Below, in pieces: positions 874 through 36,547 of a DNA stretch of 64,000 nt (position 1 is the stretch's first letter; each line of letters begins with the position of its first letter). Source of the DNA: Agarophyton chilense. Its lineage: Eukaryota > Rhodophyta > Florideophyceae > Gracilariales > Gracilariaceae. A program made the position numbers and the translations under genes. The notes beneath the pieces were generated by a model that worked only from the letters and a program-made list of their open reading frames with translations, was not told the origin of the DNA and made no database searches. Where the stretch lies: contig JARGXX010000105.1 of NCBI GenBank assembly GCA_030374765.1, forward strand, positions 806,001 to 870,000, read 5' to 3'.

Positions 874-1841
<968 letters not shown>

Positions 1842-7990: not shown

Positions 7991-8032
7991 GGTGCACGCC
8001 GCTGCCTTTCCAACCCGCACTGCGAAAACAGA

Positions 8033-8074
8033 TGTATTCGTTGTGGAAGAATGGGGCACTCTATGTCTACTTGT
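8033..8074 (+). pseudogene. Gag CCHC zinc knuckle, relic 1
   Basis: A perfect CX2CX4HX4C knuckle (Cys, Cys, His, Cys at codons 8033, 8042, 8057 and 8072) marks the nucleocapsid end of Gag. It is followed by a short basic/acidic stretch and then stops, so the surrounding Gag frame is broken. Confidence 0.75.
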
Positions 8075-8416
8075 TGGTCGAAGGTAAAATGGGAAGGCAC
8101 TCGTGCCGTCGGTTTCGAGGGCGCAAGGTTCGAATCGACCGATGAGTTGAAACTAAAGAAGGTACACCAAGTCGATCATGTCGCAGTTTTACAGGCGGGT
8201 ACCGCGGAAAATTTTGTTGCCGCTGCGAAGAGGAATGCGGATTAGCAGGTCCTTCTTAACCGGTTTCGTGGAAACGTGATGAAAATTGACGCCTCGGTCG
8301 ATCGCACTACCGTTCATCGTGTTGGAGCGAAACTAATAGCGAAGAAGAAAACCAAGAATTCCATGAATGCGAAGAGTTCATCTCACGGTGGACAGGATCG
8401 CGTTGGGAAATAAAAC

Positions 8417-8899: not shown

Positions 8900-10786
8900 G
8901 TGGGCGCGGAAGAAGTGTTGTTTCCTTTTTACGACGAGCCTCTCATCATCCAAAGAGCTTGTACTGATAGCGAGGACTGTATATCCCCAGAACACTCAGG
9001 ACCAGATGGGACGCCGGTTGAGTCTTCTTCGTCCTCGTTGGGTTCAGGGGACGAATCAGATGCCGAACCTGAGATGGTTCTTTCCATCTTGAACAAAGAG
9101 CCCTTTGAACCGGACTTGGAGTCGGATGTGGACGCAGTGGAGACCTCGAGTGAGTATGAGGAGAGTAGGCACTCGTCGCTCCTTGCTTCGAAGTTGAAGC
9201 ACCTTCCGCAAGACGTTCATGCGAGCATGACCGTCGCCCTCAAGGAGACTGATATTATCGGGTGCCACATGAGTAGCCTCCCCGTAGCTGAATTTCCCGT
9301 GGTGCACTCTTTAGAGTTGACGGATAATACCCCTGTCTATTCTAGGGCACGCAGAGTCCCGCCAAAATATAACGCCACTGTGCATAAAGAGGTGGCTAAG
9401 CTGCTACAGGTGAGTGTGATCACCCCATCCAGTTTGGTCTGGTCCTTCTCCGAGGTCATTGCCACAAAGAAGGACGGCAGGCCAGGGTTCTGTGTCGACT
9501 ATCGTCAGCTTCATCGAGTGATGAAGGCTGACCGTCGGCCTCTACCCAAGACTGAAGATATCACCGATCACCTATTGAGGGCGAAGATCTTTACCACGCT
9601 GGAATTGTACACAGGATACAGGCAGGTTCGGATGTCAGAGACCTGAAAGGAGATGGCGTATTTCACCTTCCCTTACGGCACATACAAGTTTGAAGTGATG
9701 CCATTTCGGTTGATGAACGCCCCGTCGACGTTCCAGAGAATGATGGACTGTGTCCTTCATGGGCTGCCATTCGTGATGGTGTATGCCGACGAATTCGTCA
9801 TCTTCTCGAAGAACTTGGATGAACATCTCCACCATTGTCGGGAGGTGTTCGATAGGATTCATGCCGCCACCTTGAAAGTCAAGGTAACCAAGTGTAGCTT
9901 TGCCCAGTCTGAGATTGAACTACTTGGCCATATGATCAGTGGAGTAGGCATTCAAGTGAATAGAGAGAGGATAGCGGACATTGCAGACGCTCCTGTACCT
10001 AGAAACACTGCGGATTTGAGAAGCTTTTTGGGGTTGGCAGGCTACTATCGCCCCTTCATCAAGAACATCGCGGAAAGCTCAGCGATCTTACATGCCGCCA
10101 CCTAGATTAAGAAGGAGTTTCGGTGGACTCCGGAGATGCAGGCCGCCTTTGAGAACCATAAAAGAAAGTTGAAGACGCCGCCTGTGCAGGCGTTCCCCGA
10201 ATTCGAAGTGCCATTCGTCGTGGAGACCGAGGCATCGGCGGTCGCACTTGGAGTGGTGCTGGCCCAGAAGAAAGAAGACGGAAAGGTTCACCCCATCCAA
10301 TACGCTTTTAGGACGATGACTGAAGCGGAGAGAAAGTACACCGCGTGCGATAGAGAGGCTCTGGCAGTCGTGTTTGCTTTTAAGAAGTTCCGGTTATATC
10401 TACTGTCGGACGTACGGTTTACCGTGACTATGGATTATCAGCCGCTACTTTGCGCCTTCAAGAAGAAAGACCTTCACGAAAGACTGACTCGTTGGTTGAA
10501 CCTCTTGGCAGAGTATGACTTCGAGATCAAATACCGCCCAGGGGCTGCTAACACGGCAGCGGATTATCTTTCCAAGATCCCTAGAGAGGAAGAAGCAAGT
10601 CCGTGGATTGAAGATAGGTTGCGGAGGGAAGTGGTCGCAACTATCTCGTGGGTTGATCCCAAACTGTCGGGGTTGGACCTGTGTTGGTTGAACGACGCCC
10701 AATTTCTCTCAGGATCTCGAGTACAGGAAGAAAAACCGCGTGGCTGCCCGGCAATATGCCGTAACGCGAAGAACTTCATGCTGTAG
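8900..10786 (+). pseudogene. Reverse transcriptase and RNase H, relic 1
   Basis: Three open blocks read as one Pol segment. The first ends in the palm start (FTTLELYTGYRQ), then a TGA where related elements usually have Trp. The second has MPFRLMNAPSTFQRMMD, the palm motif VYADEFVIFSKN and the connection FLGLAGYYRPFI. After another stop comes RNase H with PFVVETEASAVALGVVLAQ, YTACDREALAVVFAFKKFR and AADYLSKIP. The usual palm residue Asp is Glu in TLEL, and the YXDD box reads YADE. The block ends a few bases after the solo LTR begins. Confidence 0.88.
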
Positions 10787-11497
10787 TATCCGCTCTAACG
10801 GAGAGAGCAGACACCTGCGACAGCGTTCAGAATGCCGATGGGTCGCTTGCGGCGAAGGAAAAGGGGTGGTAGAGCTACAACACCAGCGAGCTGGAAGTGG
10901 GGTGTAAGGCCACTACTCGCCAGCGAGGGTGAACAGTGCAACTGTAAAACGTTGATGGGACGTAGGTACGAGACGGCTCGTGAAGTGTTTGGGGGCTGAC
11001 TATCTCTGTTAGCTCGTCCGGATCTCCTGTTAAGGAATCCTAAGCGAGGAACAGAATAGTCATGATGCCCATGTTGTCTCCTTTACTAGGAGTTGGCGCT
11101 CACCTCTGGTACATTATATACTGTGTGCCAGGGTGAGTGCCCAAATAAATATATAAATAATACCCAGTGGTCAGCCACTTAGCCAAACCACTGTATGGGT
11201 ATGGTACCTAATAGAAGTCTAGCTACAAAGGGTAGTAAAGCCCTCTACGTGGATCGCCACTACTTGCGCCGTTGCCAATATGGCATTCCCCTAGGAAGGG
11301 TCGCAACTATGCGCGCGCCGTGGTAAGCCACTCGACCCATGACGCCACGTGTTCCACTAAGACATTCTGCCTCTAGGCATCCTATGCGGGATGCCGCTTC
11401 ATATCACAATGCTATTGACAACACTCACTCATGAGTTCCAACCGCGACTTCGCGAAAAACCAACCTATCGGATTCCCCGACATAGTAGAATACTTCA
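10782..11497. repeat. Solo LTR, element-3 family, with 5-bp duplication
   Basis: A 716-bp LTR starting TGTAGTATCC and ending in GAATACTTCA (the other copies end GAATACTACA). It is flanked by identical CATGC at 10777-10781 and 11498-11502, a perfect 5-bp target duplication. No internal domain remains, so it arose by LTR-LTR recombination. It is about 49 bp longer than the 667-bp copies because of extra sequence near 11277-11325. It split the pol region of relic 1, so relic 1 is older. Orientation follows the left-to-right reading of the LTRs of element 3, meaning the element's own sense strand is minus. Confidence 0.93.
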
Positions 11498-17310: not shown

Positions 17311-20300
17311 ATGAGACCCCGCGTAATGCTTGTGGAACTGGGAGACGGTTCTTCAGTTCCCATCTTCCATCGCCCGTTAAGTCGAGCCTCAAAGAAGCTC
17401 GCACCTTTATTTGCGGCGCAGAAGACCCACCCGTCTTTGCAGAAATCTACAAAGCTTGGTATGGCCGTGTCGATACGAATCCCACCTGAGTCCTAGGTCT
17501 GCGTACGTGTCAACTCTCGGAAACACAAGTTTCGGGTTACTCCATCTTTATACGATAAATATCAAATAGTTGTAGCGGATGGCGTTGCTCAGACTAATTC
17601 GTGCAAAACTTTCACGGTACTAGGTGCCAATCTAGGCGACACATGGAAATTACTGATGAAAAACAAAGTTTTTGGGTCTGTCATGCATCATTGCACCGCA
17701 ATGGTCCCTACTTAATTGACCGCCGTTGCGATACCCCACCTTGTCTACCCTTCAAAGGGGATGACATGTTCACTCAATCACCCAGTAAAATGGACCGATA
17801 AAATGCAGAAGCAGAGAAAGACTTCCTTCTAACGATCTATGACCGGATGGACCCCGGAAAAGAGATCAAATATATCAACCTCGTCCATGTGCCTGAATCG
17901 CATCGCGAACGTCTCCGTAAAATGTTACGAGAGTTTACGTCAATGTGGGGTGGCACTCTTGGTTAGAATATTGAAACGGAACACCGGATAGACTTCTTAC
18001 AGAACGTTAGACCGGTTTCTCCACATCCTTCCAGAGCAGACCCCAAGGCTGGTGAAGAAGAATAGTTTCAAGTAGACAAGTGATCTGAGCTGGAGTTCGC
18101 GAACCGGCTCAGGCGCCGTGAGCATCTCCAGTTGTCATGGTTCCGAAACTGAAAGGTCCCGGTGTTTATTTATCTATTACCATAGCTTGAACAATGTAGC
18201 TGTCAAGGACGTGGAACCGATTTTATTTATGGATGGGTATATTGATTCACTCGGCACCGCCACCGTGTTTCGGCTTTAGACTCCAATTAAGGATACTGGC
18301 AAGTTTTTGTTAGAAAAGAGGACCATGATTAGACTTCTTGTGCCTGTTATTCGAAACACTACCATTTCAAACGGATGGGACTTGGTCTGCCTAAAGCTCC
18401 CTCTACCTTTCAGCGGGCTCTTGATATTATACAAGCCCGCTTTTAGTGGCGTACATGCTTCGTCTATCTGGACGATATATATTTTTTCTTAAATAAACTT
18501 GATGAACACCTCACTCAATTCAGGGATGTTACGACCACGTTACGAGAAACCGGGATTATACTCAAGTTAGAGAAATGTAATTTTCTCACAGATACCGTCA
18601 AGTATCTGTGTCACCTTATCCGTCCTCGGCAGATTATGATCGAAGAAGCTCGAATGAAATCATTTTTTCTATCGATATAAAACACAAGCCAGAAGGAACC
18701 ATGATCCTTTCTAAGATTGGTCAACGTCCGCAGAAGATTAACACCCCGCTTCACAGATGTCGCCAAGCCTCTAAACGCACTTCTCCGGAAAAGTGAACCG
18801 CCTAAGTTAGAAACCTCCATCTCCGCCCAGACGGATGCTTTTAATTTTATGATTGAGGCCGTATCATAATCACCGATGCTTTCGTTGCTGAAAACCGTAC
18901 TACCGGTTGCAGTGGACATGGACGCCAGTGAGTACCAGGTGGGATGTGCTCTCTTTCAAATAAATCCTGAAAAAGAACGGAAACCAATTGGGTATTGTTC
19001 ATGTTTTTTGAATTTCTACAAACACAGCTACTTAGTATCGGAGAAAGAGTTTCTCGCCGTTGTATGGGCCCTCTCTATTCTTCGCCTCTCTCTCAAGGGT
19101 GTGAAATTTACTGTTTACACGGATCACTCTTCTCTACAATGGCTTTTGACGGTCTTGGAAGCAGTACGGCGTTTATTGCGTTGGCGACTCCGTCCAACGG
19201 AATATGACTTCGAAATGATGTAGGAGAAGGGCACGCAAAACGTGCAAGCGGACGCGCTCTTACGTTTATCGGCGAATGGAGAAGCTCTGCCCACAGAGGA
19301 CGAAGATATATTTGTCTTCTTCGTATGTGACCGAGCGCCGGACCAGCCGCACTGCATACACCAAAACGTGGCCTGAAGACTGCGAATCAGATGCCGAATG
19401 GGACACATTTGTCGTCTTTGACGAAACTGAGAAGTACCGACCGGGTAGTCTTGTGCCGATATCACCGAAGGAAAATATTACAGAACACAAAGGTGACACT
19501 TTCTGTACAAAGATACTCACACGCCTTAACGGTGGTGCCCCACTTCTTCTCGACATAAAAGAAAGTAGATACCTCGTCAAGATGGTACAGTCCTCCCCAA
19601 AAATAGGGGTTCTGCATTTTCTACGGTCAGGAGTATTTCATATATCGCATTATTCCAGACATGATGGAAACGCTGGTGGGCGGAAACTCTACCTCACTTT
19701 GCGGAGGAACTTTTATTTGACAGCCACGGCTGTGGACTTTTACGCAAAAGTGCAGTTTTGCACCGAATATGCCAGGAATTGCCTGAGAGTATGCAAAAAG
19801 TCAACAAAGATCACGCCTTTCCCTGCAAGCTGTCCACTCGAGTTTTTCGCAATCGACAATCTCGGCCCTCTCCTCACTACCCGACTTCGACGAAAATTTG
19901 TTCTCCGTATTACGGTTCGTTTATCGTAGCTGGTTCGGCCAATGCTTTTAAGGAAGATATCCAGATTCACGGTTCCAGAAGCTTTTGTAACCCACTGGGT
20001 ATCTATCTCAGGCCCACCGGTGTATCTTCTGTCAGACAATGGAAATCATTTTGCATCGCGAGTTTTTGAGGACGTGTGTCAGATTCTCGACATCAAGAAT
20101 ATCTTCGAGACGACCTACCACTTCCAGTGTAACGGAACAACTGAGCGGTTTCAACAACGCTACTAGCACCCCTCCGTTTTTACGTGGCCAATCACCTCAA
20201 ACGTTAAGATCTGTTTACTGACCGGTTATCGTTCGCGTACACTACGAAAATAAACGGAATAACGAATCTGATTCCAGTTGAATTTGATTTGTCCAAGACT

Positions 20301-20420: not shown

Positions 20421-21493
20421 GCCCGTGCTCAAGCCGCCCATAAGCGTGGTTTTTTACTCTGGACTACGCCATACTGCACAACCGATCAACTTGGGCGACT
20501 ACTTCCTCACTCGTAGGGACTACTCGAACCACGATAACGAGAAACCTCATAAATTATTGCCTGTCTCGTAGGACCCTACAAAATAAGCTCGGCTAGAAAA
20601 CACGTCACTGTGGTGTAAATGGACGAAGATCAAGAGCTCACCTCCTGCGACGGCGTTTTCATAGCCCTACAACCGCTTTTAGAAGTATTCGCTAGTGGTG
20701 TACAACCGACAACCGTGGATAGTGGTCAGCGGCACACATCAGTTTCTCAGTCCGCTTCAGTGGTTACAAGATCTTCTGTCTTGGTACAATCTACTCGCAA
20801 GACTCTTTGATCTACCGATCTTGTCACAAAGTACCCAGAAGAATCCCTCTTCAGCCCCCACACGTGGTGTCTACCGTCGCTGGTTCGCAATCACCACTGC
20901 TCCACTCGCCGCCCTATTTGAAGAAGGCGCGGAGGATGATACGATAGACCGCGAAAAAGCCTTTGAGCCCAAGCCAGTCACGGACAATCTTTACGCCAAA
21001 AGCGAAATTAACTTGTTACCAAGTGTAGTAGTGGGGACGCCTAAATGAGTACGCTGCGGTGCCAATGCTATCCAGGGAGATTTAATTCACCCACACTTTC
21101 GATAATTAGTCGAAAGGAATACGGAGACTTTAGAATAAAACCTTAGCATCCATACTGTAACGCCAAAGCGTTCAAACTCACTCACAACAATACCGCACGA
21201 GCCTTTATGTGAGCAGGCAAAACACGCCACGGTGCAGACACTTGGCCCAGAGCGCTCTTAGAATCAGTTGAAACGCGCACGTGATAGAAAGCCCTTCACC
21301 GCCGCAGATATATAAATCAGCGCACAGTGAGGTCAACTCCCCGGTACATTGTGCATATCGGCACAAACGCCTCACTCCTCAGTTTTTTTCAGCGTCAAAA
21401 CGGGTATTAGCACTTAAGCTCATTGAGCGCGACCCAGGAGCCCATCTTTGAGGGGAGTCTGCATCACAAACGTGGCCTAGCCGGAAAATCGAC

Positions 21494-21648
21494 GAGCAGG
21501 AATTCGTTTTCGACTATATCGGTCAGCACGTATACCATGGGGATGGATACATTCATCATGTTGTTGTTGAGTACTCCTATGGTCCTAACGCAGAGTCGGA
21601 TGAACCAATTGCGCGTCTCCGACGTTCAGAAGTGGTTTCATATCACCG
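21494..21648 (+). pseudogene. Chromodomain relic, element 2
   Basis: One frame reads QEFVFDYIGQHVYHGDGYIH and ends EPIARLRRSEVV. Position by position this parallels the element-3 chromodomain QEYVMDRICEHGEHEDTREL ending EPIAHMPRSQLV. The usual aromatic-cage Trp residues are lost (the YRVRWYGF block reads VVVEYSYGP). It lies after integrase, as expected for a chromovirus-type Ty3 element. Confidence 0.75.
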
Positions 21649-21899
21649 CAAAACGAAGACAGGGATCTACGCAATGACCATAAATACCCAAGTAGGGTAG
21701 TTGAGCGACCGTTGTGGAAGAATAGGAACAGGAGGAGGAGGAGAAGGAGGGTAGAAGAATGTTTAAAAGTTGTAATTAGAAGTAAAAAGAATCCCACAGT
21801 AACCCGTTGTTGATTTGAATACATCGGTTCCGTGCGGAGAACTCGGAAAATATTTTACATCGAGAAGCTACAGGCCCATTTCGGGATCAACACCCCTTT

Positions 21900-23232
21900 A
21901 CGGATTGGGATAGTGACTTCTTGAGTGGTTTCTTAAAGACGGGAAAAAAGGTGCTCGCATTTTGGCAACGTCACTACTGGCAGCGTTACTACCAAGCACA
22001 ACATAACGGAGGAACTCGGAGACCACGTTCACCTGACCCGCAGAGATGGCAATTTCCCCGCCGGTAGTGAAACTCAAAAAGGATGCCCAATGGCGAAGCC
22101 AAAGATTCCAAACCAACTGTAACAGCTGGGACAGCCCCCGCAAGGTCATCCAAGTCTCTAAAATGAACCAACAGGGTTCTCTGCGGTGTGTGACTTACAT
22201 ATAACTTTGGACTCAATCACCTCAACGGACGGCACCCTATCATTGGGTTCATTATCAATCATCTGTTCCTCGCCGTCGTAGAGGGGTAGTACTCGCCGTG
22301 GTCCAAGAAACTGGCCGAAATTCCCTTAAGGATACACCGCGGAGCAAACCGAAGGTTGTTAGCCTCCTCCGAAGAGATCTCATGTCCCTACCAGGTGTTG
22401 AAATAGATGGACTCACCTGCGTGGAGAGTTGGACGTCCTGCTGACATGTCCTGCAGTCGATTACCGGCTGCACGTCCACTCTATAAAAAACAATGAGGCC
22501 CAGTCACCCTGGTCGAAGAAATCGAGAAGTTTCGCCACCTTTTGGATGTTGATCTAACCACGTAGCGGGATGCGCATGTCGAAAGCACGAATGCCGGAAC
22601 GAACTCGCAATGGGATAAGTCAGAGTCGGTAGCTAGCGGTCATTATCCCCTCAAAGAATGAAAATGCCGTGCGGATAGCCAACTAGGTGACGAGAAGGGA
22701 CCAAAGTCCGTACTGAGAATCCCCGAGCAGGTAGGACCCGTAATACGTACTAAAAGGAGCTACCTCGATGTAAGAGCCTTGACAAGCTCCAGGATACCGC
22801 CACCAAGGTGGAATGGGAACATATCGGCCGCGTCGGTCGTCTGCTCGAATGCGTTCGATCTCCACGTTTTTGTACGGGACCATATACCCGAACCAGAATC
22901 GTGCTCTCCGTTCTAAGCGGATCATCTCAAAAAATTTCGCTCGCCCAATCCGTTGCATGAAGCAAAATTGAGTCCGAATACTCGGCCGGGCGCAGCAATC
23001 TGAGTCCTGGCATACATATGTACAGCCTCTCCATGGGATGGTTTTGCAAACCCGAAAGGTGGGCGAGATATGTAATTTCACCTTGGATGCTGTAAAGCCT
23101 TACATCGGAGCCCAGAACATCGGGTATGGGATATGTAGCATTCGGGATGCACATTGACTCGAATGATCGAAAAATCATCGAAGTCGATATACAGCATTTA
23201 TAATATTTTCTTGGTACTATATGCGAGAACAA
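21900..23232 (-). pseudogene. Antisense accessory-gene relic, element 2
   Basis: The minus-strand segment 23,081-22,683 contains FGYMVPYKNVEIERIR, RRGRYVPIPPWW and YYGSYLLGDSQYGLWSL. These align in order with GYLVPYQMIEIDRIR, RFGRYIGIPEHW and YIGSALVNDPFSGYW of the plus-strand ORF beside element 3's 3' LTR. In both elements this gene runs opposite to gag-pol and lies beyond the chromodomain. The N-terminal part (to 23,232) and the C-terminal part (to about 21,900) are frame-broken and align only weakly. Function is unknown; no known domain was recognised. Confidence 0.7.
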
Positions 23233-23249
23233 GATGTTATGAGAAGAAT

Positions 23250-24955
23250 TATTCAGCGAAAATTGGAAATTAGAATTAATTTATTAGCACCACACTTGCA
23301 CGGTGTGAACACCAAATAATTAATTTGTTTTTTAAAATAATTGTTTTGTAGCACACCACACAGTAGATCTTACAGTATAGGAGCTCCTTTGCCTCCTGGA
23401 ACAATAGAGAGCACTTGGCCCCGGGTGAGTAAGGAAGAGGCCAAACCAGCACACAACCATCTTGGTGTTCGTTAGGAATCCTAAAATGTTTATCGACGAA
23501 GAAGCACCTATAGCATCAGTGATAACCATATCTGAGCTATATCTTTTGTTCCGACGATCTCCTCCATTACTGCGCTGTTTTCCCATGTTCACCTCTGGCC
23601 ATTGTGTGTTTGCTTGTCTGTTTTGTTGCCGTTTTTTTTATTTCGTTACATTTTTATACTTTTGCTTCTGCCTGTCACACATATACTAATCACTTTATTA
23701 TTCGCATTCTCTACCTATTATATTTCTTTTTTCTGTCGTTTCTATTTGAGTTCTTTTCTTTGCGCTATTCTAGGCTGGTGCTCCCAAGAGCATAAGTACT
23801 ACTTTTGTCACCTTGGGTTATAACCTGCGTTGTCTTCATTTTTCACTTTACCGATATGACGTTTGCGAAGAGCTTGACTACTATATTTGTTGATTTCAAC
23901 TGTAGGGCCGATGCGCGTTGCTTGTAATAATATAAACAAAGTTGCCAGCGTTTCAGGCGTGCGTTTTACACGCATCGATATGCGAAAAAGAAGCTTAAGA
24001 CGTTTACTGAACTGTTGAACAATAAAAAATCAATATATTCAATATTTCTTATTGATTCTGGATACTGCTTCATTTATAACTCGTGAAATTGGGAACGTTT
24101 TAAAACGCGGTTGGTATGGTTGGAATAATGATATATATAGCTTTCAGATAAATGTTCTTTCTATACTGAATTTTATCACACTGTTGGTGAATGTGGAAAG
24201 AAACGGGGTTTGACGTTTCGCGCGAAAAAGGCACGGAGCGAGGAAGAAAGAAAAAAAGAAAAAAATGCAGATGATGGTCGAGAAAGTTGGTAAACTCTTC
24301 TTTAGCTTCTTCGCTTTTTAATGTGATTACTTCTTTCCAAATTAAGAAACACGTGCTCTATTCTAACCGACAGTAGTCCTAAATTTTAAATAGGATTGCG
24401 TTTGAATAAATCGTGAATTCACGCATAGTGAAACAATGTTTAGAAGCTCTTGTGACATAGAGAAAGCGATGAACGGACTTCCACCGAGCCGATATGGCGA
24501 CTGTTTGCTTGTGTTTTGTCAACCATATGTGTACAGCTACACTATGCGTGATGATCTGCGTGATGTAGTGCACTGCGGAGAGGTGAGCCCGCCTAAACTT
24601 TTTTGGCAGTCTGTGCGTGATGACACGCACACTGACTTGTGCGCGTGCGAGCTCCGGTGCGTTGAAGAGAAGGTCGCGCTCACTGGGCTGGGCGCTGTTG
24701 TGTCTCGCGGTTCGATGGGAGGCGTTCAATTCCAATGTTGTAGACGTTTGGTAATTGTAAAGAACTGAATATGAGGCAATTGCTTCGTTATAATGTCAGC
24801 CAGCATATTTTTAGACGGAACGTGGTGGATAGACATGGTTTTGTGGACTTGTTGCGGCAAATAAGTGGTGCTTCACGTCTATGGACTTGCAGCGTTCTTA
24901 ACTGCTCGTGTTCGAAACGAGGAAAATGGTGGCTACGGTGTATAGGTAATTCGGC
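23250..24955. other. AT-rich interval without a recognised gene
   Basis: Mostly AT-rich, with a T/C-rich stretch at about 23,600-23,760. The only notable structure is a dispersed repeat near 24,462-24,556 (listed separately). A 110-codon open frame at 24,436-24,768 overlaps it but has no domain; I do not call it a gene. Confidence 0.5.
24462..24556 (+). repeat. Dispersed ~95-bp repeat, copy 1
   Basis: Begins GAAAGCGATG and contains a conserved core reading TTGTGTTTTGTC, ACCATATGTGTACAGC, TACACT. A second copy in the same orientation lies at 52,885-52,983. By eye they are roughly three-quarters identical. The two lie next to unrelated sequences, so this is a dispersed repeat family of unknown nature. 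Confidence 0.6.
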
Positions 24956-25622
24956 TGTAGTATCCGTTCTAACGGAGCGAGAAGACACCTGCGACAGCGT
25001 TCGGACTGCCGATGGGTCGCTCGCGGCGAAGTAAAAGGGGTGGTAGAGCTACAACACCAGCGAGCTGGAAGTGGGGTGTAAGGCCACTACTCGCCAGCGA
25101 GGGTGAACAGTGCAACTGTAAGACGTTGATGGGACGTTGGTACGAGACGGCTCTTGAAGTGGTTGGCGGCTGACTATCTATTATAGCTCGTCCGGATCTC
25201 CGGTTACGGAATCCTAAGCGAGGAACAGAATAGTCATGATGCCCATGTTGTCTCCTTTACTTGGAGTCGGCGCTCACCTCTGGTACACTATATACTGTGT
25301 GCCAGGGTGAGTGCTCAAATAAATATATAAATAATACCCAGTGGTCAGCCACTGAGCCAAACCACTGTATGGGTACGGTCCCTAATGGACGTCTAGCTAC
25401 AAAGGGTAGTAAAACCAGCCACGTGGATGGCCACTACATGCGCCGTTGCAAGCCACTCCACTCGTGATGCCACGTGTTCCACTAATGTACCCTGCCTCCT
25501 GGCATCCTACGCGGTGTGCCGATTCATATCAAAAGTTTGATGGCATCACTCACTTATGAGTTCCAACCGCGACTTCGCGAAAAATCATCCTATCGGATTC
25601 CCCGACATAGTAGAATACTACA
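24956..25622 (-). repeat. 3' LTR of element 3
   Basis: 667 bp with terminal inverted octamers TGTAGTAT and ATACTACA. It contains an AT-rich block (CAAATAAATATATAAATAAT, near 25,316) that is TATA-like on both strands. On the plus strand this block lies about 300 bp upstream of the antisense ORF start at 25,647, so this LTR could provide an antisense promoter. Confidence 0.93.
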
Positions 25623-25633
25623 TACCCCCCTCG
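25623..25633 (-). other. Polypurine tract of element 3
   Basis: On the minus strand the bases immediately before the 3' LTR read GAGGGGGGTA. A purine tract here is the expected site of plus-strand DNA priming and confirms that the left LTR is the 3' one. Confidence 0.75.
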
Positions 25634-25646
25634 TTAAGCGCGAACC

Positions 25647-27473
25647 ATGGGGGACGCAAGAAGCGTTTATACGCAGTCGGACCGGTGTTCCAGGTACTCA
25701 TCGTCATCACGAATTCCTCGCCGCACGACCAACTCGTACAGTTCTCAACAGCACTCTGTTCCTCACCGCTCTTCAGCTCGATCTCTCGCGCTGGATCCAA
25801 ACGCCGGGTCCAACCCGTTTCAGCCCTCCTCTGAGGATGTGCCTTCTGGGGCTCCGTCCAACACTGCTGGTTCTGCATCGCAGCCTACTGCTCAACTCGG
25901 TCCATACCGTTCGTTCCCCACACCGTACGCCGGATTCCGGTCGGTACCGTTACCTCAGCCAACCGTGGCTCCAATGCCGAACGCGGCTTACGTCGCCTCT
26001 GCAGGTGTGATTCGAGCTCCTTCTCGTCGTGCTCAGCGGAGCTACCCGCACCCTGCGGATTTCTATAGACGAGATCCTCTCGACGACGTCGAACTTTTCG
26101 CACAAGCGCCCTGGTTTGATCCAGTTGCTATCCGCGATGACGCGTTGATACAACAGTATGTACACGGTGGGTACTTCCCTGACGGTATTCCGGAACACGC
26201 GATTCATAGCGACGACTGGGCGAGCCATATTGCTTTGCCAGACAACGCGATTGCGCGATATTCAACGGAAACCTTTTCCGAAGCCCGTACGCGGTTCACC
26301 AAGCTGATTTACCAGCGTCTTCACTCATTCATCAGTACGGTTCTACTCCCGCAGGACTGGGAACTAGATATCTGGAAAGCCCGTACCGACGGTGAAGGTT
26401 CCTCGTATATCGAGACACTGGTTGAAGTCGATGTTAGCGGTTGGCGCGGTGTGCGCGGTGTGCGTGATGCAGCTCTCTGCTTTCAGCAACCTCTTCTCCG
26501 TGCGGAGTTCCGCTTCCTTTGAAAGTGTGACATTCCCTATTGGGATTATCCCCGTTGGGAATGTCGTACTCGACCACGTTTGGGCTATTTGGTGCCGTAT
26601 CAAATGATAGAGATTGACCGCATCCGGCGGAAGGCGCGCTTCGGGCGCTACATCGGTATTCCGGAGCATTGGGCGGCGATCGAGAGTCCTCGTGGTTGCC
26701 CTGTGGAGCTCCCACCGGCGATCTTTTATATCGGGTCCGCGTTGGTTAACGACCCGTTCTCGGGATATTGGACGGTGGTTTATACCGAGTTTATCGCCAA
26801 GATGGCCGTCTTCCTCCTGTGGGATGCTTATGATACCTTTAGAGTTTGGTACATGTCGCCCACAGCGCGAAAGTATGCGAGAGAACTCGATGTTTCCCTT
26901 GTCCTGGGATCCCGTGCGAACCATGCCGAATTCCTCCATCTTGGGGATTTGATCGACAGTGTCGATTGGTCTGGATTACCAGCTGATCAATCCGCTCGCC
27001 GAACCCGTGCAAGACAACACGACCATTCTCCTGGAAGAACAGCAAGTGTTGGAGATTTCGTTTGGTACGACCCCTGGACGCGCCAGTTGATCACCTCCGA
27101 GCAGACTCGCTTTCTTCGGGAGAATCCGCGTGACATGCCACCGAACCAGCTTACTGGATACGTGTTAGATGCTACTCCATCCGAGAACGGAGAGGAACCG
27201 TATGAGAAAGCGCCGGGAGCTGAGGCTGAACTCAGTTACGAGGACGAGTCAGAGCTGGCAGGCGTAGAGACTTCCGTCGATCAATCCGCAGCGGCGGGAG
27301 TTGCTCAAGAGTACTTTCATGGGTTTACCCAACAACCAAGTGCAGTGCCGGTCGAATATCCAGGCTTCGATCCGCTGAGGCAGTTCCTCTTAGATGCGGG
27401 CTTTCCCGTGGACCAAGTTGAGGGTGATCGCGCACAGCTTCTTGCGAACCTGCGTGATCGCATGTCTCTTTGA
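25647..27473 (+). pseudogene. Antisense accessory gene of element 3
   Basis: A 609-codon reading frame opposite to gag-pol, starting 25 bp inside the 3' LTR with ATG in good context (AACCATGG). One TGA at 26520-26522 divides it into 291 and about 316 codons in the same frame, so the ancestor was probably one protein. Residues 1-130 are rich in Ser, Pro, Gln and Arg. The middle is mixed and acidic/aromatic (DPLDDVELFAQAPWFDP). The second half has GYLVPYQMIEIDRIR, DFVWYDPWTRQLITSEQ and an acidic tail. I see no signal peptide, membrane segment, zinc motif or known domain. An AATAAA follows at 27527-27532. A homologue sits in the same antisense position in relic 2. Confidence 0.72.
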
Positions 27474-27575
27474 TGATCCCAGAAAAGACTTCTAGTCAAC
27501 ACACCTGGCAGTGACATCTTGATACCAATAAAACTCCGGTGACTTCGTGTCTTCACGTTCCCTTCGTATCTTCTA

Positions 27576-27722
27576 GTCTTCATCTCTTCTCGCTTCTCGA
27601 GTTCTTAACTTCTTCTTCTCGCTTCTCGAGTTTGATACTTCCCTTCTCGCTTCTCGAGTTCTTCAATCCTTCTCCTCTCGCTTCTCGAGTTCTTCAATCC
27701 TTCTTCTCTCTTCTCAAGTTTG
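27576..27722 (+). repeat. CTTCTCGCTTCTCGAGTT minisatellite
   Basis: Several imperfect units of CTTCTCGCTTCTCGAGTT with short T/C-rich spacers, just after the stop and AATAAA of the antisense gene. A shorter array of the same unit follows the second copy at about 28,655-28,712. On the gag-pol (minus) strand the array is purine-rich. Confidence 0.85.
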
Positions 27723-27728
27723 TCCTAG

Positions 27729-28550
27729 GTGATAATCAGTAAATGTCGTGTGCAGGGCAACCCCCCTTGTGGTTGCCCTGTGGAGCTCCCACCGGCGATC
27801 TCCTACATCAGGTCCGCGTTGGTTAACGACACGTTCTCGGGATATTGGGCGGTGGTTTATACCGAGTTTATCGCCAAGATGGCCGTCTTTCTCCTGTGGG
27901 ATGCTTATGTTACCTTTAGAGTTTGGTTCATGTCCCCCACAGCGCGAAAGTGTGCGAGAGAACTCGATCATTCCCTTGTCTTGGGATCCCGTGCGAACCA
28001 TGCCGACTTCTTTAATCCTGTGGATTTGATCGACAGAGTCGATTGGTCTGGATTGACAGCTGATCAGTACGCTCGCGGACCCCATGCAAGACACCACGAC
28101 CATTCTCCTGGACGAACAGCAAGTGCTAGAGATTTCGTTTGGTACGACCCCTGGACGCGCCAGTTGATCACCTCCGAGCAGGCTCGCTTTCTTCGGGAGA
28201 ACCCGCGTGACATGCCACCGAACCAGCTTACTGGATACGTGTTAGATGCTACTCCATCCGAGAACGGAGAGGAACCGTATGAGAAAGCGCCGGGAGCTGA
28301 GGCTGAACTCAGTTACGAGGACGAGTCAGAGCTGGCAGGCGTAGCGACTTCCGTCGATCAATCCGCAGCGGCGGGAGTTGCTCAAGAGTACTTTCATGGG
28401 TTTACCCAACAACCAAGTGCAGTGCCGGTCGAATATCCAGGCTTCGATCCGCTGAGGCAGTTCCTCTTAGATGCGGGCTTTCCCGTGGACCAAGTTGAGG
28501 TTGATCGCGCACAGCTTCTTGCGAACCTGCGCGATCGCATGTCTCTTTGA
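27729..28550 (+). pseudogene. Duplicated C-terminal half of antisense gene
   Basis: Second tandem copy of the C-terminal half of the antisense accessory gene, about 260 codons of homology. It lacks the N-terminal half and has no suitable ATG at its upstream end, so on its own it could start only at an internal Met. AATAAA follows at 28603-28608. It differs from copy 1 at about 25-30 residues, mostly in the first third. Confidence 0.75.
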
Positions 28551-28903
28551 TGATCCCAGAAAAGACTCCTATTCAACACCCTTGCAGTGGTATCTTGATA
28601 CCAATAAAACTCCGGTGACTTCGTGTCTTCACGTTCCCTCCTTATCTTCTAGTATTTATCTCTTCTCGCTTCTCGAGTTCTTCAATCCTTCTTCTCGCTT
28701 CTCGAGTTTGTCATAGGTTATAATCAGTAAATGTCCTTTCCTTGCGTGTCTTCACGTTTCCTCTTCATGATTTCTTGTTTTCTTCTCGCCTTTCGAGGTT
28801 TTACTACCTTTGTAGCCCATACTTAGAAGTGGGATGTGCCCATGAGCGCGACTATCGAGGAGTCGATCTCCCTGGGGAGTGGTAATCGCATGTGTCGATG
28901 ATA
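28551..28903. other. Convergent spacer in element 3
   Basis: Spacer between the 3' end of the antisense duplicate (plus) and the end of the chromodomain ORF (minus). It holds AATAAA, the second minisatellite block and a partial third repeat of the unit end (TTCACGTTTCC). Transcripts from the two strands would converge here. Confidence 0.55.
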
Positions 28904-29860
28904 TTACACGAGCTGCGAACGGGGCATATGAGCTATAGGTTCCCACGTATCCGCTTCTGAAGGAAAACCGTACCAACGGACTCGATACAGTAATTCTCTA
29001 GTATCTTCATGCTCGCCATGTTCACATATGCGATCCATAACATATTCCTGGGCGTTTCCCAATGTTTTCGCTGTTGGCGCGAGACTCCTGTTAACAGGTT
29101 TGAAATGCCCTAGGGCTGACCCAAGCGTCTCTGTTTTAGCAGTCTCAGCGTCGCTAAGCGTTCGCTCGTCGACTAACTGTCGTTCTGCCCGCAGGGGCAG
29201 TGTACTCATTCCTTGACAACCTTTCTCAGATAAAGAGCTATCCGGTTTTCCAGGTTCCATAGAAGCGTACTTCTTGCTACTTCTCAATTCCATTCGTGGA
29301 TGAACTTCCTTCGGTTTATCCGATTCTGACCGCTGTTCGGTGGACGATGGTGCTTGCTCCACGACAGGAGGCGATACCTCTTCTTCTTCCTGTTCACGAG
29401 GGATGGGAGCCGATATCGGCGGAACAGCGAGTGGCGCTTCACCTGACAGTTCAGCCTGAAGCGGCAACGGCGCGTTTTCGCGTGCACTCGTTTCCAAGTC
29501 CTTGGAGCCAAAGTCCAAGACATCTTTCCTGCTTTCAGGTTCCATTTCTGTACTTACGGGTGTGCCCGTGCCACGGAGCATATCCCGATACTTCGGAAGC
29601 TGTCCGTGATTGGCGTACGCAACCGCCGGCGGTGGGAGATCAAGAGCTTTCTCCTCCGCTCGAGCCATTGGTGGCGGTTCACTCTCCTCAGAGTCACTTG
29701 GGCTTTTGCCTTGACGTTCTGTCGCATATGCCTCCTTAGTTCTACCAGATACCTGGACTTCCATTTGCGGGTCAGGCGCGACTTCAACGCCATTGCGCGA
29801 TACACTTTCAACGTCCTCACCTGTCTTGATGACCACTATGTCTTCATTAAGGTCCACCAC
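28904..29860 (-). pseudogene. Pol C-terminal extension with chromodomain, element 3
   Basis: A 318-codon open block whose last 50 residues form a chromodomain: EYVMDRICEHGEHEDTRELL, then YRVRWYGFPSEADTWEPIAH. The three cage aromatics (Tyr, Trp, Trp) are in place. In Ty3 chromoviruses this domain follows integrase and can guide insertion to marked chromatin. The long segment before it is acidic, Ser/Glu/Pro-rich and unstructured. One stop separates it from the integrase block. Confidence 0.88.
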
Positions 29861-30841
29861 TTAGAAGGGTCCAGCCGCCATCGGCAACAACTTATGACGA
29901 GATTCTTCCTGTTTGTCAGGTCTTTCGTCTTGCACGAAAACGTGACCTCCTACTCGGATTGCCGGATTTCCTCTTCGCCTTCTGGCTTCATAGTTTCGCT
30001 TATAGCGAGCTTGCGTCTTTGATAACTCCTTAGCGGCTTCTTCCGCTCTGGCCTTCAGGTCATTCCTCCATTTCAGATGGTACTTAGCCGGGGTCGGCGC
30101 GTCCAATTCTGTCTCGTCGTCGAGCGCAACCGGTAAAGCCGGAGGGTTACGTGAGAGCACGAGGTCGAACGGTGCCTTCCTTGTAGAGGTATGCACTTGC
30201 GTATTGTACGCGTAGCACAGAGTATCAGTAAACATGTCCCATTCTTTCGGGTGGTCCGCGATGTAGTGTCATAATGCTGCTATAAGCGTGCGGTTGAAAC
30301 GCTACACCTGACCGTTGCATTGCGGATGATAGGTCGTGGTAAACACGTTTCGAATGCACATAATGCTGCAAACATTCTGAAAGAACTTCGCAACGAATTG
30401 CTTTCCATTGTCTGATAACAGAACTTCTGGTGGTCTGTACATAAATACCGAGTGTTTGATAAACGCTTGTGCGATTACGGTTGCGGTTATCCGCCTCAGC
30501 GGCACAGTCCGCACTAGCTTCGAGAAGCGGTCGGTGATTACCAATAGGTAGCGATAACCTCGCCTTGAGCGAATCAATTCCCCTAGGATGTCGATACTGA
30601 CGTATTGTAAAGGCGCTTTCGCCTGGAATAAAGTCATAGGTTTCCGCTTCCTGTAAGGCTTTACGCGATTCTTCGCACATGTTGTACACAACCTCACTGT
30701 AGCATGGCAGTCCATTGCCAAAGTAGGCCAGTAAAAATCTCTTCTTAGAGTCATGAACAACTTCGTTCCTCCTAGATGACCAGACAGCCTGCTGTAGTGT
30801 GCCAGATGGAGTACTCGACTCTTCAAGACGTGTGGAATCAC
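29861..30841 (-). pseudogene. Integrase, element 3
   Basis: The zinc region HLAHYSRLSGHLGG and CTTCAKN is intact. The core has Asp in YVSIDILGEL and Asp in VLLSDNGKQF. At the expected NGQVERFN motif the catalytic Glu codon is TAG (at about 30,302), a single-base change from GAG. A further stop follows within 12 codons, then a distal block (YNTQVHTSTRKAPFDLVLS) and a GPY-like end. A frameshift at about 30,845 separates it from RNase H. Confidence 0.9.
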
Positions 30842-30848
30842 GATTTGA

Positions 30849-31814
30849 TCATGCTTTTAGACATGTCTTAACAGTATTCCTCGTGAATCGAGTGAAAAGG
30901 GGAGCTCCTCCCCCCCCGTTAACACGAGAGTGTATCGACGCACAAAATATATCGGCGTGTTGCTCATTGAGGAGCTCAGTGCACGAGATTCGCTCGAGTT
31001 GAACTGAAGGGTCAGTGTCTGCTAATGCAAGGAACGGGTCTGCATCCGAAAAATAATCAAGGGTCTCTTGTTCCTCTTCTTCAAAAGATGGTGAATGGGT
31101 CTCCATGTAGAAGCAAGGTATCTCTTCATCGATTTCGCCTTGGGTTTCGCCCAGTGTTTTAAGTCGCGATAGCGCGTCAGCTTGGACATTGGCCAATCCC
31201 TTCTTATGCTTCACTTCAAAATCGAATTCAGAAAGGCGTAAGCGCCATCGTGTGAGACGACCAGACGGGTCTGTAATGGACAGTAACCATCGTAAAGACG
31301 AATGATCCGTGTTGACGGTAAAACGTTCTCCCTGGAGATACGGTCGCAATGTGGTTAGAGCCCAAACGACTGCAAGGCATTCCTTTTCTGAAACTGAATA
31401 CTTCTTCTCAGCTGCGTTCAGCGATCTTGACCAGTAACAAATGGGGTTGCGTTCACTATCAGGGTGTGCTTAAAAAAGGGCACACCCTACTTGGTACTCG
31501 CTAGAGTCGGTATCCAATGAGTATGGCAGATAGAGGATGGACAGCACCAAGACTGGGGCTGTAATAATCTTTGTCTTCAGCGTGTCAAACGCTTCCGCTT
31601 CAGCTTGTCTGAATTGTTCCAGCTGTACTGGTTGTCCTTTACGCAGCTTTGCGTTGAGCGGTGCCGCTATGTGCGAGTATCGCGGCACGAATCGTCGGTA
31701 GACGTTGAACAAGCCGAGGAAAGAACGCAATTGCTTCTGTGTCGAAGGAGGTTGTACTTCGCGGAGAGCCGCTGTTTGTGCCTCTTGAATGGCAAGCTGT
31801 CCCGGCTTGATCAT
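30849..31814 (-). pseudogene. RT end and RNase H, element 3
   Basis: RT connection (FLGLFNVYRRFVPRYSHIAA) leads into RNase H: SLDTDSSEYQVGCALF, EKECLAVVWALTTLRPYL, TDHSSLRWLLS and NVQADALSRL. A TAA at 31,470 sits where relic 2 has Gln (ALFQ), a single-base change from CAA. The catalytic Asp and Glu positions look intact. A Glu/Asp-rich linker follows. Confidence 0.88.
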
Positions 31815-31844
31815 ATGTCCTAAGTACCTGACGGTGCCAGCGAA

Positions 31845-33602
31845 CTATTCGCATTTCTTGAACTTCAAGGTGATACCTGCGCTCTGTAGTGGTTTGAGGA
31901 TCTCCTCGCCGTGCCGTAAATGGCTTTCCACATCCTGGGAAAAGATGATCACATCGTCCAAATAGACTAAACAAGTCTTCCACTTGTATCTTGAGAGCAA
32001 GATGTCTAGACTACGCTGGAAAGTAGCAGGTGCATTCGTTAAGCCAAAGGGCATCCTTTTGAAACGGTAGAGACCGGTGTGACACGCAAATGAGCTTTTG
32101 TCTTGGTCTTCTTCCGCTACAGGCACCTGCCAATAGGCAGAGTTGGCTTCAAACGTGGTGAACACGTTCGCTTCTCCTAAGCCGTCAATACATTCGTCCA
32201 TTCGAGGCAACGGGTATGTATCTCGAATTGTAACTGCGTTCAGTTTTCGTTAATCGATACAGAATCGTAAAGAACCATCAGGTTTTGGAACCAGCACCAC
32301 TGGTAAGGCCCAAGCAGATTGAGCTGCTTCGATTACTCCTTCTTCCAGCATTTTGCTGACATTCTCCTCCTCCACTTGACGAGTTCGCGGTCCCGCTCTG
32401 TAGGGTGGTTGGGAGATGGGTCGTGACCCTGGGACCAAATCAATGTGATGTTCCGTAGCGGAGGTCTTTCCTAGTTTTCCACTCCGCATGGATGTATACT
32501 TCTTCAGCATAGACCTGATCTTCGTTCTGTAGTGTCCTGACACATGTGCTAAGTCTAGCTCATCGACCAGGCCCTCTGGATCCTTTGCCGTTTGCAATTG
32601 ATCTCCAGACGGAGTTTGCAGTTCTTCTTCTGTGTCACCGACATGGGTTTGTCCCAATAGTTCTGCAGTAGAAATATGAGTAGGGACCACCACTATGGGA
32701 TGAGGCAAAGCTGTTGCAACAACCTGATTCTTCGGTATCTCATAATCGTTGTCGGTGAAATTACTCACTAGTATCCAAAAGGGGCTACCAAGATCAACCT
32801 GAGCAATGCCGTTAGCGACTAGCAATCCACGGGATTCGTACATCCGATTATTCGGTTGAATAACCACGAGTCCGTGTCGATCTGATCTTACTTGAACCCA
32901 AGTTTGGGTTTGCACCGTCAGCATGGAACTCTTCGCTACTCTAATTTTCGGCGAGACACGTCCTCGGGGTTTCCCGTATTCCATAGATGGTGGAAATGGA
33001 GGTGCTTCAGAGCAATGACGCATTGGCTTGCGAACAATTGGTACCATTGATCCATCATCTAGTTCCACTAGTTTTCTTCGCGGGCGAATAGCTTCGGCAA
33101 ACTTGTCGCAATAATCACATCCCAGTACCACTGGTGCAGCTAACTTCTTACAGACGATGAAGTCGACTAGGACTGCAAAGCGTCCCAAACGCACCACGAG
33201 TCGAACTGTTCCCAGTGTCTTCACAGCATTTTTGTTGGCATCCCGGATGTCCGACAAAGGACCGTATCGAATACGTTCTAAGTCAGCAGGAGCGAGTTCC
33301 GATTCCCGTATAAAGTTCGGACCAGCACCTGTATCCAGGATAGTCAATCGACGAGATAACAGATTCCTGTCAGAGCCGAAGTCGCCATAGACCTTATAGT
33401 TTCTTTTAGACATTACCATGAGGTAACTTTCCAGTTTTGACGGACAAGTATAACGTCTCAAAGGACGATGAAACTCACAGTCAAACTGTACTCGCTTTCC
33501 GTCCGGCGGATTGATTCCGTACGGCGGAAATTTCTGAGGCCTCAAGAGAATCTTGGGGTTCCAAGCACGGGAGCAGGGAGGCGATCTCTCCCTGGTCATC
33601 AC
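31845..33602 (-). pseudogene. Protease and reverse transcriptase, element 3
   Basis: Starts with a linker and a retropepsin active site ILDTGAGPNFI (Asp near 33,335). A long spacer leads to RT: MLEEGVIEAAQSAWALPVVL, PDGSLRFCID, a TAA where Tyr is usual, RKLNAVTIRDTYPLPRMDE, MPFGLTNAPATFQ and the active site VYLDDVIIFS. The first palm aspartate motif reads TTFEANSAYW, with Glu. The TAA (32,250) and a TAG at 31,845 are the only breaks in this Pol part. Confidence 0.9.
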
Positions 33603-33643: not shown

Positions 33644-35655
33644 TTAGTTTTCCGGTTGCACCGCCTTATTCGCCTCAAAAGCGTCTCTTCCTACCGGGGT
33701 TCCGGGTTGTAACACTTCAGCATTCTGAGCAACCGGCTTGTCCGTCCGGCACATTGGTGTCTGAGAAAACCAACTTTTGGCTTTCCAATACATGCCCGCC
33801 GGTACGCGGCTCCTTTCCTCTTCTGAGAACGCTTCATAATTCGTCATGATACGACTCAGATCCTTTGCAGGAAGCGTGCATTCTGCACTCAAATGGTGTT
33901 TTCCATAACATGAATAACATATCAAACCGTCACGAAGGTTGGTCAACATAGGTTGTGAACAGTATGCCGTGCGAGTATCCACCCATCCGGGTTTCCCGTT
34001 CTTAAAACCTCCTTGTAGAGGCACCTTGTAGGGACGGTACATAGGTCGACGGCCCTCCACAGCCATTAGGGCTTCCTCGTCCTGAGACTTCGAGTGTGGG
34101 AGATCCACTGTAGGAACAGAAGAGTCCGCATATTCCATTAAATGGACCGCCTCCTCATGCAAGTCACTCCCTTTGGGTGCCAACGACTAATCTCGCGAGT
34201 GCACTGGAGATTCCGGATGTAGCAGTTTGCTGCGCTGATTAACTCTGGCGGAGATCTTCTCCTTACCCATTGAGGTTCCAAAAGACACTGAACCACGGGG
34301 GCTACCACGCGCTCTGGCTGCGTCTCCTTCAGCTTTCGCAATCTGAACTAACTCCAAAAAGGAGACTTTTCCATGCTTCTCTCGATATCGAGCTACCAAC
34401 GACTTGATGCTCGGGTCCAGCCCGTCGATGTACAAGGTAATCTTGTCCTCCGTCGAGTGAACGTTTCCACAGTGGACTGGAGCTTTGTTAAGCCTTGAGC
34501 TGTACTCAGCTTCGCCCTCCTCAGGCTTCTGGCTCACATCCCTTAGGTCCAGGATCGCCTGACGTATGGCGTTTGAAGTCGCGTAACTGCCCAGCAAATA
34601 CTGCACCGCCTCTGCTGTCAATGATCCGCATACGGAACGATATTGCTCTAAAGAAAAACTCTTCAGGAAGTGTGGTAAAGACACAAATGCCTGTGGTTCA
34701 CTCATCTCTAGAGTGTCTGCTTCGGCAACGAATCGAGTGAGAAACTCAATAACGAGAATGGGGGTTTTCCCATCAAATGTTAAATCATTAAGGCCGATCT
34801 TCAATCGTTTGATGTGATCCTTCACCTTCGCGGTGTCGCGTCCTGAGCTCTTCTTGCTCTTCACCTTCAGACGGTAGTACCTGTAATTCAGGACCTTCCG
34901 ATAAAGCGGAATCGTGCACGGGAGCACCTTCAATCCTCTGTAAGGTGAGCCTTTTTATCTCATTAACCACGAAGACGTGTTCTTCTTCCGAGATCGGGAC
35001 CTTCGATGACCATCATCACTGTCGTCCTCATCTGAAGTATCTGAATCATCTGAATCATCAGCACTGGAACTGAAGCCCTCCGTACTTGACGATTCATCAC
35101 TCGTATCACGTGCGGACTTCCGCTTCTTAGGTCGTGACTTCGACTTCTTCGAATGAGCTTCCTCCAAAGGAGCTCCTTCCTCTTCCAGCACAATTGGTTT
35201 AGCAGCAGTCTGCGCATGAACTACTGCCTCCAGGCGTTCTAAAAGAGGGTTAACTCGAGTGAGGACTTCCTCTACATCCACAGTTAAGCCAGGTAGCGCA
35301 TCGGGCGTATTCCCGTACCTTCCAGTAGATGGTTCAAATCCTCACGTAGTGTTTTCACTGATGCAAAGACCTGCTTCCCATCGTCTTGAAGAACGAGTGC
35401 TTGATGCGCACTGCGTAATTGTTCGACATCAGCGATAAGAGCAGCGATCTGCGATTCCAGCGCAACCATGCGCACACGCGAAGCGCTTGACTCAGACTTG
35501 AGACGACGCACTTCCCTGCGCAAATAATCCTCATCTTGAGGTCCGACGACCTCAGGGTCAACTATGGCTTCTATGGTGGGCGTGACTGCCGCTGCCACGG
35601 GGACCGGTACATCCGAGAGATCTCGTTCATCATTCACCGAGCGTGAGCGCGACAT
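33644..35655 (-). pseudogene. Gag region, element 3
   Basis: Four open blocks. 35655-35284 is a coiled coil (LRREVRRLKSESSASRVRM and onward). 35281-34955 is basic then very acidic (KKSKSRPKKRKSARD, DDSDDSDTSDEDD). 34933-34187 is the capsid-like domain with FVAEADTLEM, EYSSRLNKAPVHCG and YIDGLDPSIKSLVARY. 34183-33644 contains one CCHC knuckle (33,919-33,878; CYSCYGKHHLSAEC). Stops or frame changes separate the blocks. The first block starts about 225 bp inside the 5' LTR. Confidence 0.85.
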
Positions 35656-35880: not shown

Positions 35881-36547
35881 TGTAGTATCCGCTCCAACGG
35901 AGAGAGCTGACACCTGCGACAGCGTTCGGACTGCCGATGGGTCGCTTGCGGAGAAGTAAAAATGGTGGTAGAGCTACAATACCAGGGAGCTGGAAATGGG
36001 GCGTAAGGCCACTACTCGCCAGCGAGGGTGAACAGTGCAACTGTAAAACGTTGATGGGACGTAGGTACGAGACGGCTCTTGAAGTGGTTGGGGGCTGACT
36101 ATCTATTATAGTTCGTCCGGATCTCCGGTTACGGAATCCTAAGCGAGGAACAGAATAGTCATGATGCCCATGTTGTCTCCTTTACTTGGAGTCGGCGCTC
36201 ACCTTTGGTACACCTTATACTGTGTGCCAGGGTGAGTGCCCAAATAAATATATAAATACTATCCTGTGGTCAGCCACTTAGCCCAACCACTGTATGGGTA
36301 CGGTCCCTAATGGACGTCTAGCTACAAAGGGTAGTAAAACCGGCCACGTGGATCGCCACTACATGCGCCGTTGCAAGCCAGTTCACTCGTGATACCACGT
36401 GTTCCACTAATGTACCCTGCCTCCTGGCATCCTACGCGGTGTGCCGTTTCATGTCACAAGTTTGATGACATCACTCACTTATTAGTTCCAACCGCGACTT
36501 CGCGAAAAACCAACCTATCGGATTCCCCGACATAGTAGAATACTACA
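35881..36547 (-). repeat. 5' LTR of element 3
   Basis: 667 bp with the same TGTAGTAT/ATACTACA ends as the left LTR and about 38 differences from it counted by eye. On the minus strand a TATTTATATATTTATTTG block near 36,257-36,240 is a candidate TATA region for the gag-pol transcript. Beyond its inner edge the minus strand reads AGTGGCCTCCCGACTTAG; no standard tRNA complement is evident. Confidence 0.92.

Follow-up and report, generated by a model that had tools for sequence, protein, structure and literature searches.

An antisense gene beside the 3' long terminal repeat of a chromodomain Ty3 retrotransposon lineage in the red alga Agarophyton chilense

The window analysed here is a 64,000-nucleotide stretch of Agarophyton chilense DNA (assembly GCA_030374765.1, contig JARGXX010000105.1, C105:806001-870000), and the genome searched with it comprises 79.8 Mb in 135 contigs. 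The window contains a retrotransposon, element 3, which reads on the minus strand and carries on the plus strand, between the chromodomain end of pol and the 3' long terminal repeat (LTR), an additional gene whose homologues recur across the genome in at least five families; that of element 3 is called family A, the others B to E. The element is made up as follows (E, expectation value of a match):

24956-25622, minus (the sense strand of the element): 3' LTR, a direct repeat with 35881-36547, ends TGTAGT...CTACA
25623-25633, minus: polypurine tract, CGAGGGGGGTA on the minus strand, between the LTR edge and the antisense ATG, read from the sequence
25647-26522, plus: antisense gene, first part, ATG to in-frame TGA, 291 codons, at least 134 scored genome matches
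26523-27473, plus: antisense gene, second part, to the natural TGA, 316 codons, at least 126 scored genome matches
27527-27532, plus: AATAAA, 53 bases 3' of the antisense stop, candidate poly(A) signal
27765-28550, plus: truncated second copy of the last 261 codons of the antisense gene, within a 1077-bp tandem duplication
28904-29860, minus: C-terminal end of pol with the chromodomain (PF00385, E 6.4e-07, over the cut-off)
30302-30841, minus: integrase, with H2C2 zinc finger (PF17921, E 1.1e-14) and rve core (PF00665, E 1.1e-13)
30996-32054, minus: reverse transcriptase and RNase H, 58% to the pol of a family-D locus (L070)
34187-34933, minus: gag-like frame, assigned by position, without a Pfam match
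35881-36547, minus: 5' LTR, a direct repeat with 24956-25622

Judged by its sequence, element 3 can be classed as a chromodomain Ty3/gypsy element, with a chromodomain 3' of the integrase, paired LTRs (38 differences in 667 bases) and the reverse transcriptase preceding the integrase; the minus-strand gag-pol with a chromodomain that had been proposed for it from the letters alone was thus borne out. The same original prediction described a 609-codon plus-strand frame at 25647-27473 beside the 3' LTR. Its location and antisense strand hold, and its single open frame does not, a TGA at 26520-26522 dividing it into 291 and 316 codons. The tandem duplication (window 26688-28735) had been missed; it doubles the 3' third of the antisense gene together with its 3' flank, and in the second copy 261 codons are still open and the upstream part of the gene is absent.

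A decayed element in the same window, relic 2, lies in the opposite orientation and offers the first comparison:

18375-19325, plus: reverse transcriptase, 57% to the pol of L070
19729-20429, plus: integrase, 57-65% to the family-B integrase
21482-21697, plus: chromodomain on the strand opposite the gene, similar to the family-B chromodomain region (50% over 72 residues)
21955-23142 (approximate), minus: antisense-gene homologue, decayed, matching the family-B protein at 38% over 310 residues (joined E 1.95e-63)

On its minus strand, from about 23142 down to 21955, piecewise alignments were obtained with the proteins of families B to E. A minus-strand homologue past the plus-strand chromodomain had been predicted here, and it is real, in the right place and on the right strand, with an extent (22683-23230) that was drawn too short. 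The homology is not due to chance, since a 131-residue piece of the relic matches another family at 57% identity (E 2.3e-43), and that family has open frames of 652 codons. The same piece has at least 150 scored matches in the genome, itself included, the others at 43-61% identity and belonging to several families.

The antisense arrangement extends well beyond these two copies. In all 60 family-A loci (L009-L068) an LTR adjoins the 5' end of the antisense gene, some copies having lost the ATG. Of the 30 loci L009-L038, 29 have the chromodomain on the opposite strand; the single miss is the window copy, whose locus ends short of the chromodomain. Placement against pol could be read directly in families B (L069), D (L070) and E (L074, L073) and in relic 2, and two loci of family D or its kin (L072, L075) have a chromodomain end on the strand opposite the gene. 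The fetched DNA of the family-C locus (L071) contains the gene and stops before pol, and antisense placement is accordingly read for A, B, D, E and relic 2. The argument that diverged copies share the same relative placement, first made from two copies, is in this way upheld.

The genome copy lists hold the best-scoring matches, and all counts taken from them are lower bounds. Approached from the integrase side, 104 of the 150 integrase matches listed have a listed gene copy that lies 3' of them at a distance of up to 7 kb and reads on the opposite strand; an opposite-strand copy on the 5' side was found at none of the 150. Three of the 46 integrases without a listed copy gain one by another search, and both of the two that were fetched hold broken copies, which brings the total to 109 of 150, the other 41 not having been looked at individually. 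The spacing between integrase side and gene has a median of 2705 bases (range 1435-3782). Three same-strand pairs of integrase and gene also occur among the 150.

Many other copies in the genome carry the gene: at least 182 distinct places, mostly of family A (matches of the two frame halves merged, plus 11 places from a further search, a few of which may represent a neighbouring subfamily rather than family A), and at least 68 scored matches of family B. Twenty-five of the latter are stop-free in the matched stretch, 22 of them across all 645 residues. The families share 30-56% amino-acid identity with one another, and it is at this distance that constraint on the encoded protein becomes visible. 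Of 19 inter-family pairs, 12 have a finite dS (1.5-3.2), and in these the ratio of non-synonymous to synonymous substitution rates (dN/dS, or omega) is 0.17-0.32, values that are approximate because dS is near saturation; dS is infinite in the other seven. With each of five families represented by a single copy, codon position 3 is the most divergent in 10 of 10 pairs, and the remaining five frames of every copy contain 3-30 stops. One integrase pair and one reverse transcriptase pair likewise have low dN and saturated dS. The omega values between families therefore indicate that the gene has been kept as a protein.

What kind of gene is this? Its position, its strand and its conservation as a protein between families are observed directly. 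We consider it probable that it is an antisense additional gene, of the type called aORF-3R, belonging to a red-algal chromodomain Ty3 lineage, with a two-way LTR promoter and an accessory role in trans as its proposed mode of operation. The claim that it is a functional gene of the lineage and not a chance capture is supported by the shared antisense slot in families A, B, D, E and relic 2, by the many copies and by the omega of 0.17-0.32 between families.

The immediate surroundings of the gene suggest how it might be expressed. Only 24 bases separate the LTR edge from the antisense ATG in family A, the gap holding the complement of the polypurine tract, and the same complement, TATCCCC, starts ahead of the ATG by 35 bases in the copy read of family B, 97 in that of C, 47 in that of D and 35 in that of E; in these families the motif, and not an LTR pair, is taken to mark the LTR edge. 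The ATG being so near the LTR edge or the polypurine motif, the antisense transcript would start in the LTR or in the short gap before the ATG. The LTR or the gap may thus act as a two-way promoter, gag-pol being read forwards from the 5' LTR and the antisense gene backwards from the 3' LTR. This transcript would end at the AATAAA that follows the stop in families A and B: the family-B copy and all 29 family-A loci of the set L010-L038 have the signal no more than 100 bases past the antisense stop, and the family-D copy read has ATTAAA. An antisense promoter inside the 3' LTR is described for human T-cell leukaemia virus (HTLV) in part of PMC7264820, and its antisense gene HBZ is named in PMC11963269. 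Less firmly, the product might be a trans-acting accessory protein of the element, probably in expression, silencing or nuclear steps.

Among known systems, the closest layout is that of the aORF-3R genes of the plant elements Retand, Grande and RIRE2, described in the consulted parts of PMC7264820 and PMC11963269 as antisense genes of unknown function that lie between pol and the 3' LTR and are retained by most copies; the Grande product is there reported to be nuclear and its gene to be transcribed from its own promoter. The red-algal gene occupies the same slot and strand. In contrast to Retand, a non-chromovirus lineage of land plants with TRP28 in 97% of its clusters (PMC11963269, in part), the element described here has a chromodomain and a red-algal host, and its gene has no TRP28 match in the 26 sequences scanned. 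Boty-like elements of Botrytis also possess one extra antisense gene, brtn (passages of PMC7264820; Zhao 2011, by its title as cited in PMC8365987); the comparison is one of layout, and Boty is fungal.

The protein itself has 28 homologues, several of them longer than 500 residues at 36-43% identity to the protein P0005, with identity falling to 36%; among named proteins, those nearest to it come from Agarophyton chilense (90% identity) and Gracilariopsis chorda. No relatives were found in the viral contigs and prokaryote genomes scanned. On inspection, serine and proline abound at the N-terminus, conservation is highest in the central part, and an acidic stretch is followed by a short conserved C-terminal motif. 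TRP28 (Transposase_28, PF04195) was matched by none of 26 sequences, comprising 25 of the 28 homologues and relic 2, at E up to 1; a genome-wide TRP28 search was silent, and its 14 control genomes were equally silent. The comparison with HBZ of HTLV-1 is again an analogy of layout, namely the antisense gene: HTLV-1 is a retrovirus, and the bZIP domain that is a feature of HBZ is not among the Pfam matches of the element 3 frames or of the 26 homologue sequences.

Several other identities were tried and set aside. An Ish1-like C-terminal domain was dropped, since a match to it was obtained with only one C-terminal piece out of 15 (best E 0.0031) and the PDB comparison is at chance (best E 0.48), and E3_binding was rejected as weak, with five of 26 sequences matching at a best E of 0.029, under the cut-off where bits were shown. 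Descent from gag was likewise set aside, the one gag-like frame compared showing no similarity (BLASTP E 0.92). An Env-like protein was rejected because the gene is antisense and not a sense gene after pol, and six of seven sequences have no strong hydrophobic segment (highest 19-residue hydropathy 1.17-1.39); the family-B copy reaches 1.79, so that a membrane segment is possible there.

A more distinctive property is the scarcity of lysine. The five family proteins (591-645 residues) contain one to eight lysines each and together 18 against 100 asparagines, while 12 gag-pol pieces contain 161 against 89, lysine exceeding asparagine in 11 of the 12; the Fisher p of 1.2e-19 for this contrast is illustrative only, because the pieces are related. 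Most of the 28 homologues are lysine-poor and arginine-rich (166 lysines and 979 arginines in all). A single lysine occurs in the 591 residues of the family-D protein and in the 617 of P0027 from Gracilariopsis chorda, whose longest lysine-free stretches span 584 and 610 residues, respectively; in two family-A proteins these measure only 199-218. Base composition as the sole cause was rejected, given that asparagine and glutamate are well above the expectation from fourfold sites in all five proteins and lysine is above the same expectation in 11 of the 12 gag-pol pieces. Lysine-desert proteins such as San1, BAG6 and some viral proteins likewise have long conserved stretches free of lysine and containing arginine, the comparison being one of composition alone; conserved deserts are reported to restrict ubiquitylation and to be over-represented among ubiquitin-system proteins (PMC10169902, in the part consulted). 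Since lysine is nearly absent from most homologues, it could be suggested, as the most tentative step of our scheme, that the product might escape ubiquitin-dependent turnover or work beside ubiquitin ligases.

A number of results weigh against the reading of an accessory antisense gene, beginning with the state of family A. Its 60 loci represent 52 distinct places, and with one split match skipped and the window copy as reference 51 sequences were left. Nine of these have an ATG and an uninterrupted frame of 608 codons, four of the nine being near-identical to each other; in the other 42 the frame is broken or the ATG missing. Because the loci were drawn from the top-scoring copies, this open fraction cannot be taken as representative. 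Some of the copies examined hold an intact gene and most do not, and the dN/dS near 1 that had been named as a refuting sign does occur within family A. Among 48 family-A sequences (three near-duplicates removed; mean identity 94.6%), omega is 1.11 for singleton variants and not clearly lower for shared ones: 0.85 for variants in 2-3 sequences, 0.86 in 4-8 and 0.59 in nine or more, the last class containing 12 variants. There is no clear constraint within the family, because the other five frames scatter as widely. The copies look like the decaying remnants of a burst, and their neutral omega fits decay after insertion in a star-like burst and is silent on the time before insertion. To this must be added the near-saturation of dS and the motif-based LTR edges of families B to E already mentioned, and the copies read of families C and E, which have neither AATAAA nor ATTAAA past the stop within 400 bases or to the end of the locus. 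As had been predicted, the protein offers no recognisable domain: the Pfam scan of the 26 sequences found none, the best match of any kind having an E of 0.029, and a profile compared with PDB returned nothing (best E 2). A crude scan for basic runs, which bears on nuclear entry, found only runs of three residues, in 10 of 12 proteins. Nor are all homologues poor in lysine, P0017, P0021, P0023 and P0026 having 3.1-4.5%, and base composition accounts for part of the scarcity and for much of the absolute lysine number (2.7-7.6 per protein predicted from fourfold sites, 1-8 seen). P0017 and P0023 both fall outside the lysine-poor pattern, and P0023 also has a long extra C-terminal tail.

Could the antisense RNA, rather than a protein, be what matters? 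From its position, the antisense unit shares about 2 kb with the 3' part of the sense RNA, and its transcript might pair with that part of the gag-pol RNA and set silencing through double-stranded RNA, a role that is discussed for plant elements in part of PMC7264820. We regard this as unlikely, as it is codon meaning that is selected between families, with omega of 0.17-0.32 and position 3 the most variable, and an RNA role alone would not hold 591-645 codons open; roles for RNA and protein can nevertheless coexist.

A bolder version of the protein's role would make it a counter-defence factor: a lysine-desert adaptor, expressed from the reverse promoter of the LTR, that would bind a host ubiquitin ligase and have a silencing factor destroyed without being ubiquitylated itself, in the manner of Vif or Vpu and independently arisen in red-algal chromodomain elements. 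We think this distinctly improbable. A captured host gene, carried as a passenger in one burst and having no role for the element, would find some agreement in the family-A copies, which resemble a neutral burst with many broken frames. It is very improbable in view of the same antisense slot in families A, B, D, E and relic 2 together with purifying selection between families; moreover, the 26 sequences gave no Pfam match, and no stand-alone host copy was noticed among the genome matches listed, most of whose neighbours were not examined. Finally, a separate mobile element nested antisense in the retrotransposon would suit the opposite strand and the somewhat higher G+C of the family-A gene (0.55 against 0.47-0.54 in the gag-pol pieces of the window) and is hardly credible beside the near-constant junction of the 60 family-A loci, with the ATG 24 bases from the LTR edge, the same polypurine motif shortly before the ATG in the single copy read from each of the families B to E, and the bounded spacing to the integrase side, no search having been aimed at ends of its own.

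The open-access literature yielded no account of such an antisense retroelement gene in red algae, subscription papers being outside the scope of the search. Both the protein family and the lineage of red-algal chromodomain elements that carries it appear to be new; the antisense layout is already known from plants and from the fungal Boty. The roles of antisense genes beside the 3' LTR in land plants and the fungus are described as still unknown in the part of PMC7264820 consulted. That a further protein family, one lacking TRP28, occupies the same slot in chromodomain elements from another major eukaryote group suggests that this slot has been used repeatedly for accessory function. With the ATG so close to the LTR edge, a two-way LTR promoter can be tested directly, and the poverty in lysine gives a concrete biochemical lead to the action of the protein.

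Some further elements were met in passing. At L070 (7307-9658), reading of the translation shows a reverse transcriptase and RNase H frame that continues into the chromodomain without an integrase between, and this element may be non-autonomous. Past the antisense gene of L069, a second reverse transcriptase (54% to the pol of L070) and an integrase (61% to the first) at 6275-8200 lie on the same strand and constitute a neighbouring element. The window itself contains two further family-A LTRs, at 10782-11497 and 63228-63894, one of them inverted and with no recognisable antisense gene adjoining, which are probably solo or truncated. A reverse transcriptase at 9698-10597 of the window, at 36% to the element 3 lineage, perhaps belongs to another Ty3 lineage.

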